Positions 89-8,228 of a stretch of DNA of 64,000 bases are shown in pieces. The stretch spans positions 1 through 64,000 of the forward strand of contig JAIQFS010000001.1 in NCBI GenBank assembly GCA_020073145.1, in the 5' to 3' direction. Positions within the stretch are counted from its first letter, which is position 1; each line of letters starts with the position of its first letter. The notes below the pieces were generated by a model that ran no database searches, was not told the DNA's origin, and saw only the letters and a list, made by a program, of their open reading frames with translations. This DNA is from Terriglobia bacterium. Lineage in GTDB: Bacteria; Acidobacteriota; Terriglobia; Bryobacterales; Bryobacteraceae. The translations under genes and the position numbers were made by a program.

Positions 89-427
89 CTACGGCGAAAC
101 ATTCCACCAAGGAAGTGTTTTTAGACACGGGCTGTTAGACCACCGCTTCGCCTCATGCCGCAGGATCATGCTCTCAATCACGGAGCGGATGATTTTCTTC
201 TCCTCCGGATCGAGGCGCGAGACCGCCTCGAACTGCAGCTTTAGCTCTTCGTCCGGCCCCGTCTCGTCTTTTTCGAACAGCAGCATATCTGCGCTCACCG
301 TGAGCGCCATCGCGAGCTTGCGGATGGCGTCGAGCGTGGGCTGCGACTGCCCCGCTTCGTAGCGGCGGATCTGCGAGATGTGCATGCCCACCATCTCGGC
401 GAGAGCCTGCTGCGTGAGGCTGCGTCA
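89..427 (-). pseudogene. XRE-family HTH regulator, 5'-truncated
   Basis: The frame encodes a helix-turn-helix core (LTQQALAEMVGMHISQIRRY, then EAG and P.L..I.K.A..L) followed by an acidic helical tail ending RHEAKRW. This is a DNA-binding domain of the Xre/HipB type. The HTH segment continues upstream of the first available ATG (about 394) to about 427, where an in-frame TGA cuts it off, so the first 10-15 residues of the domain are missing. The last about 18 codons, after RHEAKRW, look unrelated and run into the neighbouring IS, so both ends may have been altered by insertion or recombination. A shortened product starting at 394 would lack helix 1. Confidence 0.6.
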
Positions 428-741
428 CGGCTCTCCGCTCAGCGGGCATTCCACATACCATAAAACGGGCCATCCACTGCCCCATGCTCCTTGGTCCGGT
501 TCGGTTTTGCACGGCCTGATAGTAGCATCTCTGACAGCGGAGGGCAGCGTTCTCTCAGCGAAGGAGCCAAGTGACTTGCGGCATGCGGCGCGTTTCTCTC
601 GCCGTAAACCATTGGGGAGGAGAAGTTCGTCAACTTCCACGTGGCTCGCCAGGCGTTTTTCGAAAAGCCACCTGCTGCTTAACAGGACGGCTAACAAGCA
701 GTTCGGGAAACTGTGCCGGATGTGCGAGACAGGGACGGCAG
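428..741. other. Intergenic stretch without recognisable gene
   Basis: About 310 bases between the broken XRE gene and the duplicated leader of the first G8 gene. Open frames cross it on both strands but none has a recognisable domain, a ribosome binding site or a plausible start. An open frame leads from here into the G8 gene, but its encoded residues look like random GC-rich translation and precede the signal peptide, so I do not count it as coding. Confidence 0.5.
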
Positions 742-847
742 CCGGAACGTTCTGTTACTATATCTCGGGGCGCTCGAAACTCAGCGGCAGTTCCAGATGC
801 TGTCTTGTAAGGCCGCGCAGGGCAAGGATTTGCCTGAAGTGCAGCAC
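742..847 (+). repeat. Leader repeat copy A (inverted partner at 8901-9006)
   Basis: This 106-bp block starts CGGAACGTT and ends AAGTGCAGCAC-like. It matches the reverse complement of 8901-9006 at roughly 88 % by eye with no gaps. It contains a conserved TACTATATCTCGG promoter-like core. In this copy it ends 16 bases before the ATG of the first G8 gene, with a GGAGGT ribosome binding site between. Confidence 0.75.
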
Positions 848-863
848 TCACGGAGGTCTAACG

Positions 864-3545
864 ATGCGAAGACATTCTCTCTTGTTCCTTTCGTTGCTGG
901 TCCCAGCCTTTTTGGTCCTCGGCGGGTATGCCGTCCTTACGGCTCAGCAAAGAACTTCTTCGACGGCCCGCGGGAAGCGCTGGTCCGATGCAGCCACCTG
1001 GCCGGACAAGAAGGTGCCCGGCAAAGACGCCGTTGTCACCATTGCGAAGGACATGGACGTGGTCCTCGATGTCAGTCCGGCGCCGCTGCACGGTTTAACG
1101 ATCAACGGGAAACTGAGCTTCGCAGATAAGAAAGATCTGGAACTGACCACCGAGTGGATCATGGTGCACGGGGAGTTGGAGATTGGTACGGAAGCCAAGC
1201 CCCACACGCGCAATGCGACCATTACCCTGACCAATAACGTCCCGGGTGAAGACATTGAAACCATGGGTGACCGCGGGATCATGATGATGGGCGGAACTCT
1301 GAGCCTGCACGGTACGGAGAAAAATTCCTGGACCCGGCTGACCAAAACAGCTGCCGCGGGTAGCAGCACCATCGAAGTCGCGAATCCCGGTGACTGGAAA
1401 AAAGGCGAGCAGATTGTGGTCGCGTCCACGGATTTCGATCCCCACCAGGCAGAGGAACGAACCATCGCCGGCATCTCTGGAAAAGTGATTACGCTCGATC
1501 AGAAACTTCAGTACATGCACTACGGCGAAGTCACCTTCGGCGTGGATGAGCGTGGGGAAGTCGGCATGCTGACACGCAATATCCGGATCCAGGCTTCAGC
1601 CGACGCAGAGAAGTCGTTCAGTGGCGGGCATGTGATGGCGATGGCCGGGTCAACCATGAAAGTCTCCGGTGTCGAGTTCTTCCGAATGGGTCAGCACGAG
1701 AACCTGGCGCGGTATCCGATCCATTGGCATCTGGTGGGCGATACGCAGGGGCAATACATTGAGAACTCTGCGATTCACGACACCTACAGCCGCTGTGTGA
1801 CGGTGCATGGCACGAACAATGTGCGGGTTGAGAACAATGTGGCGTACAACAACGTGGGTCACTGCTACTTCCTCGAAGATGGCGTGGAACACGGGAACCA
1901 GTACCTTGGAAACCTGGGGATGCTGACCCGGTGCAATCCCACCAGGCCGTGTAATTCGACCAACGCCCTGAACGGCTCAGGGGCCGGTCAAAATGCCACC
2001 GACCAGTTGATTCCTTCCGACAACACGGCGTCCACCTTCTGGATCACCAACCCCGACAATACGTACCGGGGGAATGTGTCCGCGGGTTCTGAGGCAACCG
2101 GCTTCTGGATGGCTTTCCCAGAACATCCAACGGGTAAGTTTGAAGGCACGGAGATCAGTGCGAAGACCTGGCCGCGTCGTATGCAACTGAAGGAGTTTTC
2201 CGGCAACGTCGCCCACTCCGACGTCGACGGCCTGCTGTTTGATCGCGGAACCAATGCACAGGGTAAATTCAACCTGGGCGGGAACACGCATCTGCCCTAT
2301 ACGGATCCCAGCGACACCAACAGCGCGAGGCTGGAAAGCGTGATCCAAGACTTTACCAGCTACAAGAACGCTGGTGCGGCCATCTGGGCCCGTGGCGAGA
2401 ATCATGTGTTTAAGGGCCTGAAACTGGCCGACAGCGGGATCGGCTACACACACGCGTACCCTGGTGTGGCCCCGTACCACGGCGACTTTACCTCGAAAGT
2501 CGAGGACTCCCTGTTCGTGGGCGAAACCGCCAATAAAGGCACGCCCAAAACCGAAGCGGAAATCGCGTATGGTCGAACCATGCCGCGCACGGACGCGGAT
2601 TACCCGATCCGTGGCTACGAATACTACGACTTCACGCACCATGTGAGCAATACCAAGTTCGTCAATTTTGCGGACAATGCCACTCGCAAAGCCGGAGCCC
2701 TCTCTTACCTGCTGTACACCAGCTTTCCCATCAGCACCAACAACGATGTCGAAGGCCTGACATTCGAAAATGCCAAGCCGGTGTATTTCCCGCCGCAGCA
2801 GGATCAGCGCTGGTCCTTCTCCGGTGAATTCGGAAGGTTTTCCGGCTGGAATGGCGCGGTGTTCCACGATATCGACGGGTCGGTCGGCGGCGTCCGCGAT
2901 TCCTACATTGTGATTGACAACGGGATCGCGGACGATCCGCAACACTGTCAAATCAAGCCGGACTGGAACGCTGCCGTGTGCAAGGGGGATATGGGGCGCC
3001 TGCAGATTGGCGCCGCCGGCGCCGGAGGCTTCGGTGGCGGAGGTTTCGGCGGTCGCGGCGCAGGCCCCGCCAGAGGCGGAGCTGCCGGCCCTGGCGCGGC
3101 TGCCGGTCCTGGCACGCCTGCCGCCGCTCCCGGCGCGGCTGGCGGCCCTGGTGCGGTGGGAGGTCGTGGCGGAGCTAGGGGTAGAGGAGGTTTCGGTGGA
3201 GGCGCTCCACCGGTCGTTCTCAGCCGCAATGGCCGGAAACTGAGCGTCAACGGGGACACCACGGTACTCGCCGGTACCGAGATCCGGGCGGAAAGCGAAG
3301 CGCCATCCCTGACCATTGGCCTAAGGGAGCTGGACAGCGGCTCCTGGGTTCTCATCGAATTACCGGGATACACCAGCGCAGCCGCGGGCCCGGCGCAAAC
3401 CAGCCTGGATGCGCTGCGCAGCGCCAAGGACACCTCGTACTACAAGGGCGATGGTTCACTTTGGGTCAAGCTGGTCTCGAACGGTGGCGGCATGCGTCCC
3501 GGCCGTGGCGGCGGAACTGGAAGCAGTATCCAAGTCAGCAGGTAA
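864..3545 (+). CDS. Secreted G8-domain / beta-helix protein, CEMIP-like (paralogue 1)
   Basis: 893 codons. The ATG at 864 is chosen because GGAGGT lies 6 bases upstream and an N-terminal hydrophobic signal/anchor (residues 5-25) follows at once. Residues about 38-160 form a G8 domain (W.DAATWPDKKVPGKDAVVTI, then GLTINGKLSF and GELEIGTEAKPH). Residues about 230-650 look like a parallel beta-helix, with stretches strikingly like animal CEMIP/TMEM2 (RYPIHWHLVGD, SRCVTVHGTNN, NVGHCYFLEDGVEHGN). A Gly/Ala/Pro-rich linker (about 712-785) precedes a small C-terminal beta domain. CEMIP-type proteins are tied to hyaluronan depolymerisation; a polysaccharide-binding or cleaving role outside the cytoplasm is inferred, not shown. 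Its paralogue lies convergently at 5367-8075. Confidence 0.85.
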   Translation: MRRHSLLFLSLLVPAFLVLGGYAVLTAQQRTSSTARGKRWSDAATWPDKKVPGKDAVVTIAKDMDVVLDVSPAPLHGLTINGKLSFADKKDLELTTEWIMVHGELEIGTEAKPHTRNATITLTNNVPGEDIETMGDRGIMMMGGTLSLHGTEKNSWTRLTKTAAAGSSTIEVANPGDWKKGEQIVVASTDFDPHQAEERTIAGISGKVITLDQKLQYMHYGEVTFGVDERGEVGMLTRNIRIQASADAEKSFSGGHVMAMAGSTMKVSGVEFFRMGQHENLARYPIHWHLVGDTQGQYIENSAIHDTYSRCVTVHGTNNVRVENNVAYNNVGHCYFLEDGVEHGNQYLGNLGMLTRCNPTRPCNSTNALNGSGAGQNATDQLIPSDNTASTFWITNPDNTYRGNVSAGSEATGFWMAFPEHPTGKFEGTEISAKTWPRRMQLKEFSGNVAHSDVDGLLFDRGTNAQGKFNLGGNTHLPYTDPSDTNSARLESVIQDFTSYKNAGAAIWARGENHVFKGLKLADSGIGYTHAYPGVAPYHGDFTSKVEDSLFVGETANKGTPKTEAEIAYGRTMPRTDADYPIRGYEYYDFTHHVSNTKFVNFADNATRKAGALSYLLYTSFPISTNNDVEGLTFENAKPVYFPPQQDQRWSFSGEFGRFSGWNGAVFHDIDGSVGGVRDSYIVIDNGIADDPQHCQIKPDWNAAVCKGDMGRLQIGAAGAGGFGGGGFGGRGAGPARGGAAGPGAAAGPGTPAAAPGAAGGPGAVGGRGGARGRGGFGGGAPPVVLSRNGRKLSVNGDTTVLAGTEIRAESEAPSLTIGLRELDSGSWVLIELPGYTSAAAGPAQTSLDALRSAKDTSYYKGDGSLWVKLVSNGGGMRPGRGGGTGSSIQVSR

Positions 3546-4833: not shown

Positions 4834-4969
4834 CGGGGTTCTGGTGAGACAGTGGCCTGGAGCCGGGGGAGTTCGCAGAAAAATGGCGCAGATCAGGCTG
4901 TTTTCCTTATCATCGGCTGCGGTTCTTTGCTCCGGGAACCGATTGCGCAGCATTGCAGTACGAATAAAC
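4834..4969. other. Gap between RAYT fragment and intron, nothing recognised
   Basis: This 136-base stretch forms the 3' flank of the putative group II intron. No coding signal, hairpin or promoter could be supported. The open frame continuing through it from the RAYT fragment is not RAYT-like. Confidence 0.4.
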
Positions 4970-5312
4970 ATAGGTAGGCGGTCGCCCGCTTTCCCTGTCA
5001 CACCACCGTACGTACGGGTCCGTATACGGCGGTTCGGTGGGTTGAGCTATCGGCCGCCAGTCAATCTTGGAATCCCGAGCGAGTCGAATTTACAACCAGT
5101 GCCCTTGATGGATATGGGCTTCGCAGTCCTTTGCCCGCTCGCCCGGCACCGTATGCCTCAGATCCGGTTTTTGTACATCGGCTCGTGCGTTTGCTTCACG
5201 CTTCTTTCAGACCCTCCGTCGCCGGAACGCCCTTGCGCTTCGCTACTACTTCACCTCCATCAGGTTGTAGAGGGGACTTACACCCCAGAGCTGTCGAACA
5301 TGCTCGGCACAC
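4970..5312 (-). ncRNA. ORF-less group II intron, class C-like
   Basis: On the minus strand the element starts GTGTGCC at 5312, fitting the GUGYG 5' end of group II introns. It carries the typical early-domain stretch GGGGTGTAAGTCCCCTC and then GGAGGTGAAGTAGTAGCGAAG. Near its 3' end, 5000-5035 folds as a domain V: a 9-bp stem (ACCGCCGTA with TACGGTGGT) with a CGC triad, which class C introns have instead of AGC. A small domain VI-like hairpin and CTACCTAT follow, so the 3' end is put near 4970. About 343 bases is ribozyme-only length, and no reverse transcriptase is encoded, so mobility would need a maturase in trans. The 5' exon is an intrinsic terminator, the classic class C target. Confidence 0.7.
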
Positions 5313-5342
5313 AAAAAAAGCCCCCGGCCTGCGCCGGGGGCT
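5313..5342 (-). terminator. Intrinsic terminator of G8 gene 2
   Basis: On the minus strand AGCCCCCGGC pairs with GCCGGGGGCT around a 4-base loop, followed by seven T residues. It lies 24 bases after the stop of the second G8 gene. The putative intron begins immediately after the T-run. Confidence 0.9.
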
Positions 5343-5366: not shown

Positions 5367-8075
5367 TTACCGGCTGGCCAGGAGGGTGGCTCCGCCACTT
5401 GGGCCGCTGCCAGGGCCGCTGCCCAGGACGTCACCGCTGGAGACCAGCTTGACCCACAGCGAACCGTTGCCTTTGTAGTACGAGGTGGCACTGGCCTGGC
5501 GCAGTGCATCCAGGCTGCTCTGCTCCGTACCGGACGCTGCCGTGGTGAATCCCGGCAGCTCGAACATCACCCACGAGCCGCGATCCAGTTCCTTCACGCT
5601 GAGGGACAAGGACGGCCTTTCGGTGGTCACCTTGATCTCGGTACCCGCTCGTACGTTGGTTTCTCCGGTGACGGGAAACTCCTTGCCGTTGCGGCTGAGA
5701 ACGATGGGCGGCCCCGCAGGTGCAGGAGCGCCCAGGACCCCGTTTCTGCGGCCAACGACAACACCGGCACCACCCCTGCCAGCGCCAGGAGCGCCAGCTC
5801 CCGCAGCCCCGCCTCTACCGCCGGGACCGGCCACCGCGGGAGCGCCGCCTCTGCCACCACCGGCGCCACGACCGCCACGACCGCCACCGCCGGCGGGGGC
5901 GCCAACCGTCATGCGCCCGACGTCGCCCTTGCACACGGCCGCGTTCCAGGCGGGCTTGACCTCACAGGCGTCGTCGATGGCGATTGCGTCGTTTTTGTCG
6001 TTGATGAGAATGAAGGAATTGGGGACACCGTCGACCGAGCCGTCCAGGTCGTGGAACACCGAGGTCTGATAGCTCCCGTTGCCGTAATCATCGTTGCTCC
6101 ACTTATACTCCATCGGCGGGAAATACACCGGCTTGGCGTTGATGAATTTCGCGCGCTGTACGGTGTTGTTGGAGCTCATTCCGAAGCTGGTATACAGCAG
6201 GTAAGAGATCGCGCCCGTCTTGCGGGTGGCGTTGTCCTGGAAATTCACGAAGGTGTCATTGTCCAGTTCATGATGGTAGTCGTAGAACTCGTAGCCGCGG
6301 ATCGGGAAATCCGGGAGTTCGGGCTCCGGCAAGCTGCGGCCGTACGCCATTTCCGCCGGCGTCCTGGGGTTGCCGAGGTTCTCGGTTTCGCCCACGAACC
6401 GCGAGTCCACCACCCGTGACGTAAAGGCGGATTGACCGAAGCTGCCGGACGCATGCGTGTAGCCAATCGCGTTGTCGGCCATCTTCAGGTTCTTGAAGGT
6501 GTGCATCTCACCGCGGGCCCAGATGCCGCTATTGCGGTTCTTGTAGCTGGTGAAATCCTCGATGACCGACTCCACTTGAGGGCCGTTCGCGTCAGCGGGA
6601 TTGGCAAGGGAAATATGCCCGCCGACGGCGAAATGGCCATCGGCCCTGGGGCCGCGGTCGAACAGGAAACTGTCAAAGTTCGAATGGGCGGTGTTGCCCT
6701 TGAACTCCCGCACCCGGGTTCGACGCGGCCAGGTTGTCTTGCTGATCTCCGTGCCTTCGAACTTGCCCGTCGGATGCTCCGGCAAGGCGAACCAGAAACC
6801 GGTCGAGTCGGAGCCCGCGGCCACGTTGTCCCGGTAAATATTGTCCGGATTGGTGATCCAGAAAGTCGACGCCGTGTTGTCGGAAGGGATCAGGATATCC
6901 TTGGCGTCCTGGCCGGCCGGATCAAAGTTCTTGCCGCCCTCCGATACGAACGGGCCGAGGTTGGTCGGGCGGCACGGCGCGTCCGGATGGCACTTGGTCA
7001 GGATCCCCAGGTTGTGGACGAACTGGTTGTCGTGCTCCACGGCGTCTTCGAGGAAGAAGCAGTGACCAATGTTGTTGTAGGTCACGTTGTTTTCAATGTC
7101 CAGGTAATTGGTGCCATGCACGGTCACGCAGCGGCTGAAGGTGTTGTGAATGGCGGAGTTCTTGATGTACTGCCCCTGCGCATCGCCGATCAGATGCCAA
7201 TGGATCGGATACCGGGCCAGATGCATGTTCTGCCCCATGCGATTGAGCTCGACACCATCGACAAACATCTTGCTCCCGATCATGGCCATGATGTGGCCGC
7301 CAAAGAGCGTCTTGTCCGCGTCCTCGGAAGCCTGGATCACGATATTGCGCGAGAGCATGCCGACTTCGCCGCGTTCATCCACGTCGAAGGTGATCTTGCC
7401 GAAGTGCATGTAGTCCAGTTTCTTGTCGAGCGTGATGGTATTGCCACGGATGGCGGCAATGGTACGCTCCTCTGCCTGGTGGGGATCGAAATCCGTGGAC
7501 GCGAGGACAATCGTCTGGCCTTTCTTCCAGTCACCAGGATTCAAGACTTCGATGGTGCTGCTGCCCGCGGCGGCCGTCTGTGCCAGCTTGGTCCAGGAGT
7601 TCTTCTCCGTACCGTGCAGGTTCAGGGTTCCTCCCATGAGCATAATCCCGCGGTCACTGCGGTCATTTCCACCCAGTCCACCAAAATCTTCGTCTTTGAC
7701 GTTGTCAGTGAGGGTAATGGTCGCCTGATGCGTGTGGGGTTTGGCTTCCGTGCCAATCTCCAACTCCCCGTGGACCATGATCCACTCGGTGGTCAGTTCG
7801 AGATCTTTGTTGTCCGCGAAGCTCAGTTTGCCATTGATCGTTAAACCGTGCAGCGCCGGCGGAGTGACATCGAGGACGACGTTCATGCCCCTCTCAATGG
7901 TGACCACGGCGTCTTTGCCTGGCACCTTCTTGTCCGGCCAGGTGGCGGCATCCGACCAGCGCTTCGCGCGGGCCGTCGAAGAAGTTCTTGGCTGAGCCTT
8001 AAGGACGGCATATCCGCCGAGGACCAAAAAGGCTGGGAGCAGCAACGAAAGGACCAAGCGATAATGTTTTCGCAT
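5367..8075 (-). CDS. Secreted G8-domain / beta-helix protein, CEMIP-like (paralogue 2)
   Basis: 902 codons from the ATG at 8075 (MRKHYRLVLSLLLPAFLVL), equivalent to the start of paralogue 1; an in-frame ATG at 8102 would only add a short extension. The domain order is the same: signal/anchor, G8 domain (about 38-165, SDAATWPDKKVPGKDAVVTI), a long beta-helix with PIHWHLIGD, SRCVTVHG and IGHCFFLEDAVEHDN, a Gly/Ala-rich linker (about 760-815) and a C-terminal beta domain. The two proteins are close paralogues along their whole length. It has its own strong terminator. An extracellular polysaccharide-related role is inferred from G8/CEMIP similarity. Confidence 0.85.
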   Translation of the reverse strand: MRKHYRLVLSLLLPAFLVLGGYAVLKAQPRTSSTARAKRWSDAATWPDKKVPGKDAVVTIERGMNVVLDVTPPALHGLTINGKLSFADNKDLELTTEWIMVHGELEIGTEAKPHTHQATITLTDNVKDEDFGGLGGNDRSDRGIMLMGGTLNLHGTEKNSWTKLAQTAAAGSSTIEVLNPGDWKKGQTIVLASTDFDPHQAEERTIAAIRGNTITLDKKLDYMHFGKITFDVDERGEVGMLSRNIVIQASEDADKTLFGGHIMAMIGSKMFVDGVELNRMGQNMHLARYPIHWHLIGDAQGQYIKNSAIHNTFSRCVTVHGTNYLDIENNVTYNNIGHCFFLEDAVEHDNQFVHNLGILTKCHPDAPCRPTNLGPFVSEGGKNFDPAGQDAKDILIPSDNTASTFWITNPDNIYRDNVAAGSDSTGFWFALPEHPTGKFEGTEISKTTWPRRTRVREFKGNTAHSNFDSFLFDRGPRADGHFAVGGHISLANPADANGPQVESVIEDFTSYKNRNSGIWARGEMHTFKNLKMADNAIGYTHASGSFGQSAFTSRVVDSRFVGETENLGNPRTPAEMAYGRSLPEPELPDFPIRGYEFYDYHHELDNDTFVNFQDNATRKTGAISYLLYTSFGMSSNNTVQRAKFINAKPVYFPPMEYKWSNDDYGNGSYQTSVFHDLDGSVDGVPNSFILINDKNDAIAIDDACEVKPAWNAAVCKGDVGRMTVGAPAGGGGRGGRGAGGGRGGAPAVAGPGGRGGAAGAGAPGAGRGGAGVVVGRRNGVLGAPAPAGPPIVLSRNGKEFPVTGETNVRAGTEIKVTTERPSLSLSVKELDRGSWVMFELPGFTTAASGTEQSSLDALRQASATSYYKGNGSLWVKLVSSGDVLGSGPGSGPSGGATLLASR

Positions 8076-8228
8076 CGTTAAACCCTCGGTACCATGCATC
8101 AACTGAAAGACTTGACGACGGGACCTTTATATTATGTTACTTTCTCCTGCCAGATTCCGGGGGCATCGGGGGCTGAAGGGATCCGGACACAGCGGTTCCG
8201 ACGCCAGAGCATCCAACGCGCCGGGGGC

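Follow-up and report, generated by a model that had tools for sequence, protein, structure and literature searches.

Comparison with its relatives confirmed that the 343-nt element on the minus strand of the analyzed window, by which we mean the whole 64-kb stretch of DNA, is a real group IIC-type intron insertion that sits behind an intrinsic terminator and carries no reverse transcriptase (RT). We put at nearly nine in ten the probability that a full, RT-encoding group IIC intron inserted after this terminator and was then gutted in place, leaving a dead remnant.

Intron boundaries and insertion site

The insertion target at 5313–5342 (minus strand) is the intrinsic terminator of an upstream gene at 5367–8102 (minus strand) that encodes G8 and CEMIP beta-helix domains (Pfam PF10162 and PF24606). 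Read directly on the minus strand, the left arm of the terminator spans 5342–5333, the loop GCAG 5332–5329, and the right arm 5328–5319. The GC-rich stem forms ten pairs with 0 mismatches and is followed by a T7 run at 5319–5313, and GTGTG starts directly after the T7 at 5312, where the sequence is GTGTGCCGAGCATG. This reading confirmed the original prediction of a perfect terminator (10-bp stem and T7, 5313–5342) running into GTGTG. A GTGTG start and a domain V with CGC are marks of class C introns.

The internally deleted intron covers 4970–5312 (minus strand, GTGTG...ACCTAT), with its boundaries set by empty sites and by relatives aligned at both ends. Rfam covariance models had been proposed as a check, and two scored above gathering in cmscan: RF02001 (group-II-D1D4-3) at 5228–5058 on the minus strand with 89.6 bits (cut-off 32, E 1.1e-16), and RF00029 (Intron_gpII, domains V/VI) at 5034–4964 on the minus strand with 40.5 bits (cut-off 40, E 1.7e-4). 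No further gathering-level Rfam match occurs in the 64-kb window, and RF01998 is absent from it at that level. The RF00029 alignment places domain V at 5002–5033 and domain VI at 4972–4996 (both minus strand), with 13 of 13 and 7 of 7 consensus pairs standard, respectively. On the first strand of domain V, CGC is aligned to AGC of the Rfam consensus, which we take to be the catalytic triad, and the predicted domain V with a CGC triad was in this way recovered at 5033–5002. The ORF list of the window contains no RT ORF within 5312–4970. Rfam matches, empty sites, and the missing RT ORF together uphold the earlier description of a group IIC-like intron without RT sitting on a terminator. Folded in isolation, the 343 nt do not stand out from shuffled sequences (z −0.69, with 23 of 100 shuffles folding equally well). 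The T run could pair with an AAAAA loop of the intron, which we assume to be EBS1, and this candidate IBS1-EBS1 pairing is suggestive.

The upstream gene and its 3′ end were also found in three other genomes (G001, G002, and G003) and as a paralogue on contig C71 of the own genome; in a fourth genome, G004, there was only a 35-base match to the upstream gene region. A similar hairpin without the intron is present at all four sites, and alignment of intron-free sites to the window placed the intron between 5313 and 4969. Three of the sites, those of congeners G002 and G003 and the own paralogue, are clean empty sites consisting of the hairpin, a short T-rich stretch, and the shared downstream bases. 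We rejected G001 as a fourth clean empty site. At its orthologous position (L040, G001:C306, corresponding to 5313/4969) the intron is absent and T5 GTGTGCCG precedes the shared bases, the octamer being identical to the intron's first 8 nt and placed directly after the T run. It may be there by chance, a 3-nt loss and two changes being enough to produce it, or it may be the last trace of an intron copy deleted from that site.

The downstream flank at 4931–4964 (minus strand) resumes shortly after the terminator at the empty sites and has matches beside the terminator in C71, G001, G002, and G003. About 30–34 nt of it are kept behind the terminator in the own paralogue (97%) and in the three congeners (88–97%), a conservation exceeding that of the sequence further downstream. 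An ORF in the 3′ flank, with an apparent resemblance to REP-associated transposases, had no Pfam or NCBIfam match. Two related G8/CEMIP genes (378–3545 and 5367–8102) face each other across the intron region, and C71 is a third genomic place, matching the 3′ end of the second of these genes.

Insertion directly after an intrinsic terminator, the feature tested for group IIC, is present in the window copy and recurs among related introns. We compared 40 distinct junctions of related introns, that of the window copy among them, after setting aside those whose flank was shorter than 45 nt or whose match began beyond position 3. At 35 of the 40, a stem of at least 7 pairs ends 2–12 nt before the intron; the same holds for 344 of 1,932 positions drawn at random from these loci. 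In one of the 35, at the second junction of L103 (G501:C41), the stem is formed by the end of the intron before it: two class C-type introns lie head to tail there, at 1517–2141 and 2141–2488, the second starting at the first's 3′ end. A search of phage sequences for the 71 bases surrounding the terminator gave no match.

The internal deletion and its effect on the ribozyme

When the intron was used as a query against 121 genomes ranging from the same genus to the class, with up to 5 candidates scored per genome, 44 genomes gave matches. Among the matches listed, many end at query positions 231–236 or start at 231, others are shorter, and none besides the window's own crosses 231–236; in the query trimmed to the intron start, this break falls at positions 225–228. 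The retained 5′ part is the intron's first 228 nt (5085–5312, minus strand), which hold most 5′ strands of domain I and share 91.7% ungapped identity with an intron of G006 (L056, G006:C60). The 3′ part is 96.6% identical to another G006 sequence (G006:C129). In the intron of L059 (G037:C47), the left and right matches to the window copy lie 1,535 nt apart. This intron carries an RT ORF at 1309–2646 (445 aa) with RVT_1, GIIM, and TIGR04416 matches, the last at 421 bits, and the window copy groups by sequence with introns that encode such a group II RT/maturase; a further relative, L068, encodes an RT of 467 aa. L059 and the partly assembled G006 copies (L056 and L053) are about 90–97% identical to the window copy over its remaining parts, and L059 has the full 445-aa RT together with the domains that the window copy is missing.

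The deletion is about 1.5 kb in size, starting at intron position 229 inside domain I and ending 13 codons before the RT stop. These last 13 codons and the stop of the lost RT ORF (FDSLGIPRLTGGR) are found at 5047–5088 (minus strand) and encode the same C-terminus as that of the 445-aa RT of L059. Because this RT tail is present in the window copy, comparison with L059 shows that the parent would still have had at least the RT end. The deletion junction is TTCG (5085–5088, minus strand): matches to full-length relatives extend up to q228 on the left and resume at q225 on the right. On the right side, 13 of 13 relatives have TTCG; on the left side, 8 of 9 have TCCG and 1 of 9 has TTCG. In a larger alignment with the window row left out, the left side is TCCG in 13 of 23, TTCG in 4 of 23, and another tetramer in 6 of 23. 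A parent with TTCG on the left would give a junction match of 4 nt, and one with TCCG, as in most relatives, a match of 1 nt. We rejected an outright 4-nt microhomology, given that TTCG stands on the left side in only 4 of 23 relatives.

A shared deletion junction is expected of trans-mobilized non-autonomous introns. Using an exact 20-base junction pattern, which a diverged copy would escape, we found a match in 1 of 399 class genomes, namely the own genome alone, and 0 matches in viral contigs. Two matches in a species-genome collection (L072 and L073, Planctomycetota) were rejected as they have no intron around them, so that the exact pattern occurs in no other intron. Among 469 plasmid and 233 E. 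coli records with a match to the intron query, none covers 80% of it. Other shortened relatives have different internal gaps (L060, G037:C45; L057, G035:C1; L025, G081:C24; L069, G036:C152; L052, G006:C143), and decay of such introns looks common among these relatives.

In the window copy, the helices that close domain I have lost their 3′ strands. The two domains that follow, presumably domains II and III by their position, are missing altogether, as are the 5′ portion of domain IV and almost all of the RT ORF. In L059, the RF02001 match runs 27 nt beyond the left breakpoint and scores 130.4 bits versus 89.6 in the window copy, and an RF01998 match of 46.7 bits lies wholly within the deleted stretch. 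Across 17 loci scanned, RF01998 reached E <0.001 in 5 of the 10 that scored with RF02001 (L059, L061, L066, L067, and L068) and did not reach it in L060, L013, L052, L025, and L071. The first 143 nt past the breakpoint are conserved (mean 0.82, with 58 columns at or above 90% in 18 chosen relatives). This alignment and two others, of 24 and 15 sequences, are each a hand-chosen subset of the matches.

A consensus fold of full-length relatives pairs columns 6–24, 125–135, and 147 with columns 230–265, beyond the breakpoint, and adds further helices at 266–336 and 353–382. Of its 106 consensus pairs, 49 show double-sided changes. The window copy has 49 standard pairs, 1 non-standard pair, and 56 lost pairs, 27 of which leave a 5′ strand without its partner and 29 of which have lost both strands. 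For the 49 pairs that can still form, the mean probability is 0.90 in L059 with the ORF left out versus 0.44 in the window copy. A CTCGG in the RT remnant could pair with the 5′ strand of the outermost helix of domain I in place of the lost partner, which would restore 5 pairs. An earlier fold made on the kept 228 columns had given 53 of 54 pairs. We rejected this count as proof of integrity because its alignment ended at the deletion and the fold used substitute helices, while the fold of full-length relatives shows that the true partners are missing.

Complete domains I–III around the core are therefore absent from the window copy. The loss is not confined to domain IV, as it would be in an ORF-less intron, since the deletion enters domain I. 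The original prediction had named domains I–III unable to fold because of internal deletions as evidence against it, and such a deletion has indeed occurred, taking partner strands of domain I helices as well as both domains that follow. Its suggestion that about 343 bases is a ribozyme-only size did not hold up either: in related introns, the structured RNA ahead of the RT part already amounts to about 370 nt, and 343 nt is too short for this ribozyme. From these alignments we infer that the remaining RNA cannot form the ribozyme core and would neither splice nor move.

Order of events and alternative explanations

The history that we favor would begin with a complete, RT-encoding IIC intron resembling those that other genera of the family carry today. 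Coming from a related lineage, it would have inserted into the DNA just behind the terminator of the G8/CEMIP gene. A single deletion of about 1.5 kb would then have joined the ends at TTCG, stripping domain I helices of their 3′ strands and removing the two domains behind them, the 5′ portion of domain IV, and the RT minus 13 codons. What was left would be a remnant without its core and without a maturase found in the genome, lying behind a strong terminator where little transcription is expected. The deletion presumably followed the insertion, with splicing lost. Insertion before deletion is the simpler order because the short form cannot splice and movement needs splicing; an RT-bearing copy at the window site is not among the known ones. 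In the parts that remain, 2 of 139 conserved columns of the 5′ part and 0 of 44 of the 3′ part deviate, and 20 of 20 domain V/VI pairs are preserved as in RT-bearing relatives, a preservation that fits a recent event and also function. Together with the empty G002 and G003 sites, this good preservation suggests that the event may be recent. If GTGTGCCG in G001 is an intron trace, the insertion may be older.

The own genome (6.3 Mb in 88 contigs, rated 100% complete) yielded only the window copy in a DNA search and with RF02001. There was no second RF00029 match among the 150 of 350 candidates that were scored, no GIIM domain, and no match to the RT of L059 or L068. Its only RVT_1 match (L003) was rejected as a helper, being a retron RT-Toprim gene. 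This retron-like RT-Toprim gene (G000:C79:57098-57634 plus flanks) lies beside a gene with weak similarity to nucleoside deoxyribosyltransferase/TIR effectors. A search of the same genome for full-length RT-bearing copies, which had been put forward as a check, thus came back empty. The absence of a related full-length copy or maturase there agrees with the predicted stranded copy; a copy with an RT could still lie in one of the gaps between the 88 contigs.

The alternative that survives best, improbable as we consider it, is that a non-autonomous ORF-less IIC intron, already short and still able to splice, was placed here by an RT provided in trans, as happens with the ORF-less introns of Thermosynechococcus elongatus. 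The missing RT, the good target site, and the intact domains V/VI would all suit such an origin, as would the existence of ORF-less IIC introns in related genomes. In a rough tree of 5′ parts, the window copy pairs with L100 (96/93), which belongs to the ORF-less group and is interrupted, although the bootstrap of this tree is unsettled and the nearest row by identity is a different one, L056 (92%). Three findings count against this alternative. The window copy lacks 56 of the 106 consensus pairs, among them those of the helices that close domain I and of the two domains after it; searches of the own genome turned up no maturase; and no other intron was found to share the junction. On the last two grounds, we do not follow the original prediction where it proposed a trans-mobilized copy.

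The ORF-less introns themselves provide a further comparison. L066 (G057:C262) is about 612 nt long, has no ORF, and matches RF02001, RF01998, and RF00029. We used it to query 237 genomes from the family and scored 2 candidates in each, so that copy numbers are lower bounds; this search found collinear copies over 613–616 of 616 positions in G057, G536, G403, G032, G501, and G288 and a copy collinear over 61–614 in G497, which makes at least seven genomes from seven genera. The seven members (L080, G057:C262; L081, G536:C48; L082, G403:C288; L083, G032:C6; L084, G497:C77; L085, G501:C41; L086, G288:C2) start with GTGTG in six cases and end with CCCGAT in all seven. Five of the six that start with GTGTG have at least 45 nt of flank, and all five follow a hairpin; the sixth, L081, has just 25 nt of flank, and the G497 copy has no 5′ end. 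Flanks of different members showed no similarity at E 1e-5 (13 of 14 flanks compared, one being short), and because of this dissimilarity the copies look like separate insertions. All three Rfam pieces are at gathering in five of seven members (L080, L081, L082, L084, and L085). In L083 and L086, only RF02001 reaches gathering; RF00029 in L083, at 39.6, lies just below its cut-off, as it does in L013. The members have a domain IV in common, the first part of which matches the RT-bearing leader (e.g., 65% over 139 positions in L034). This family of about 615 nt, by keeping RF02001, RF01998, and RF00029 in five of seven members and by having a domain IV without the RT tail that the window copy retains, also argues against the window copy having arrived short.

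We searched the same assemblies with the L068 RT. The best match is 47% in G032, the best-scoring ones are 68% in G497 and 85% with a stop in G501, G288 has fragments of 74–75%, and G403 has a 36% match with a stop; the G057 and G536 assemblies gave no match. In the tree of 5′ parts, L085 is placed among RT-bearing copies with unsettled support, and a single origin of the ORF-less family is for this reason not established. We consider it probable that, within the same bacterial family, a non-autonomous, ORF-less IIC lineage has reached unrelated sites in at least seven genera, presumably moved by the RTs of related introns, and that the window copy represents a similar event that failed and left a gutted intron. 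Among the titles and abstract openings listed by literature searches, none describes such an ORF-less IIC family.

Slightly less probable again is an assembly artefact in which the interior of a full-length intron was skipped and the ends joined. Introns of this family do break assemblies elsewhere, with several matches stopping at contig ends. In the own genome, a single copy was found and there is therefore no repeat to collapse; moreover, the joined sides share at most 4 nt and a 395-kb contig runs through the site. Finally, a terminator with chance group II-like motifs and no intron at all, for which the domain V/VI score speaks by lying just over threshold (40.5 versus 40), has a negligible probability and is refuted by the full-length alignments, the 91.7% and 96.6% identity to G006 introns, the empty sites, and the RF02001 E-value of 1e-16. 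Insertion of a complete intron followed by an internal deletion remains the reading that we prefer.

Comparison with known group II introns

As a decayed class C intron, the window element is ordinary in itself. It does carry a warning, since two Rfam matches and a perfect terminator mimic a compact working intron and it is the comparison with full-length relatives that shows the core to be gone. The ORF-less IIC set, mostly with complete ribozyme parts, would allow a direct test of class C trans-mobilization.

Class C introns insert at terminators, according to a review (PMC4424553), and a census finds them mostly directly behind terminators (PMC8919778); their targets are given as IBS1, IBS3, and a hairpin in another review (PMC3898094). 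In its insertion after an intrinsic terminator and in the RT of its full-length relatives, the window copy is like the group IIC introns B.h.I1 and that of Oceanobacillus iheyensis, as these are portrayed in PMC4424553 and PMC3898094. Unlike them, it has no RT and has lost about half of its consensus pairs.

Bacterial ORF-less introns are described as rare and nearly always accompanied by a related RT in the same genome, C.te.I1 of Clostridium tetani being the known exception (PMC4424553). Like C.te.I1, the window copy has no ORF and was found without a related RT in its genome; C.te.I1 is described in that review as self-splicing well, whereas the window copy is without the required domains. 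In T. elongatus, the ORF-less introns trace back to a single deletion of the ORF, and a related RT mobilizes them (PMC2882425). Like this TeI3 series, the window copy has lost about 1.5 kb from an RT-encoding intron and has kept remnants of the ORF. The TeI3 deletion, as the same paper reports, lies in domain IV and is common to 17 copies of introns that are still mobile, whereas the deletion in the window copy cuts domain I and is present in one copy, in a genome in which a related RT was not found.
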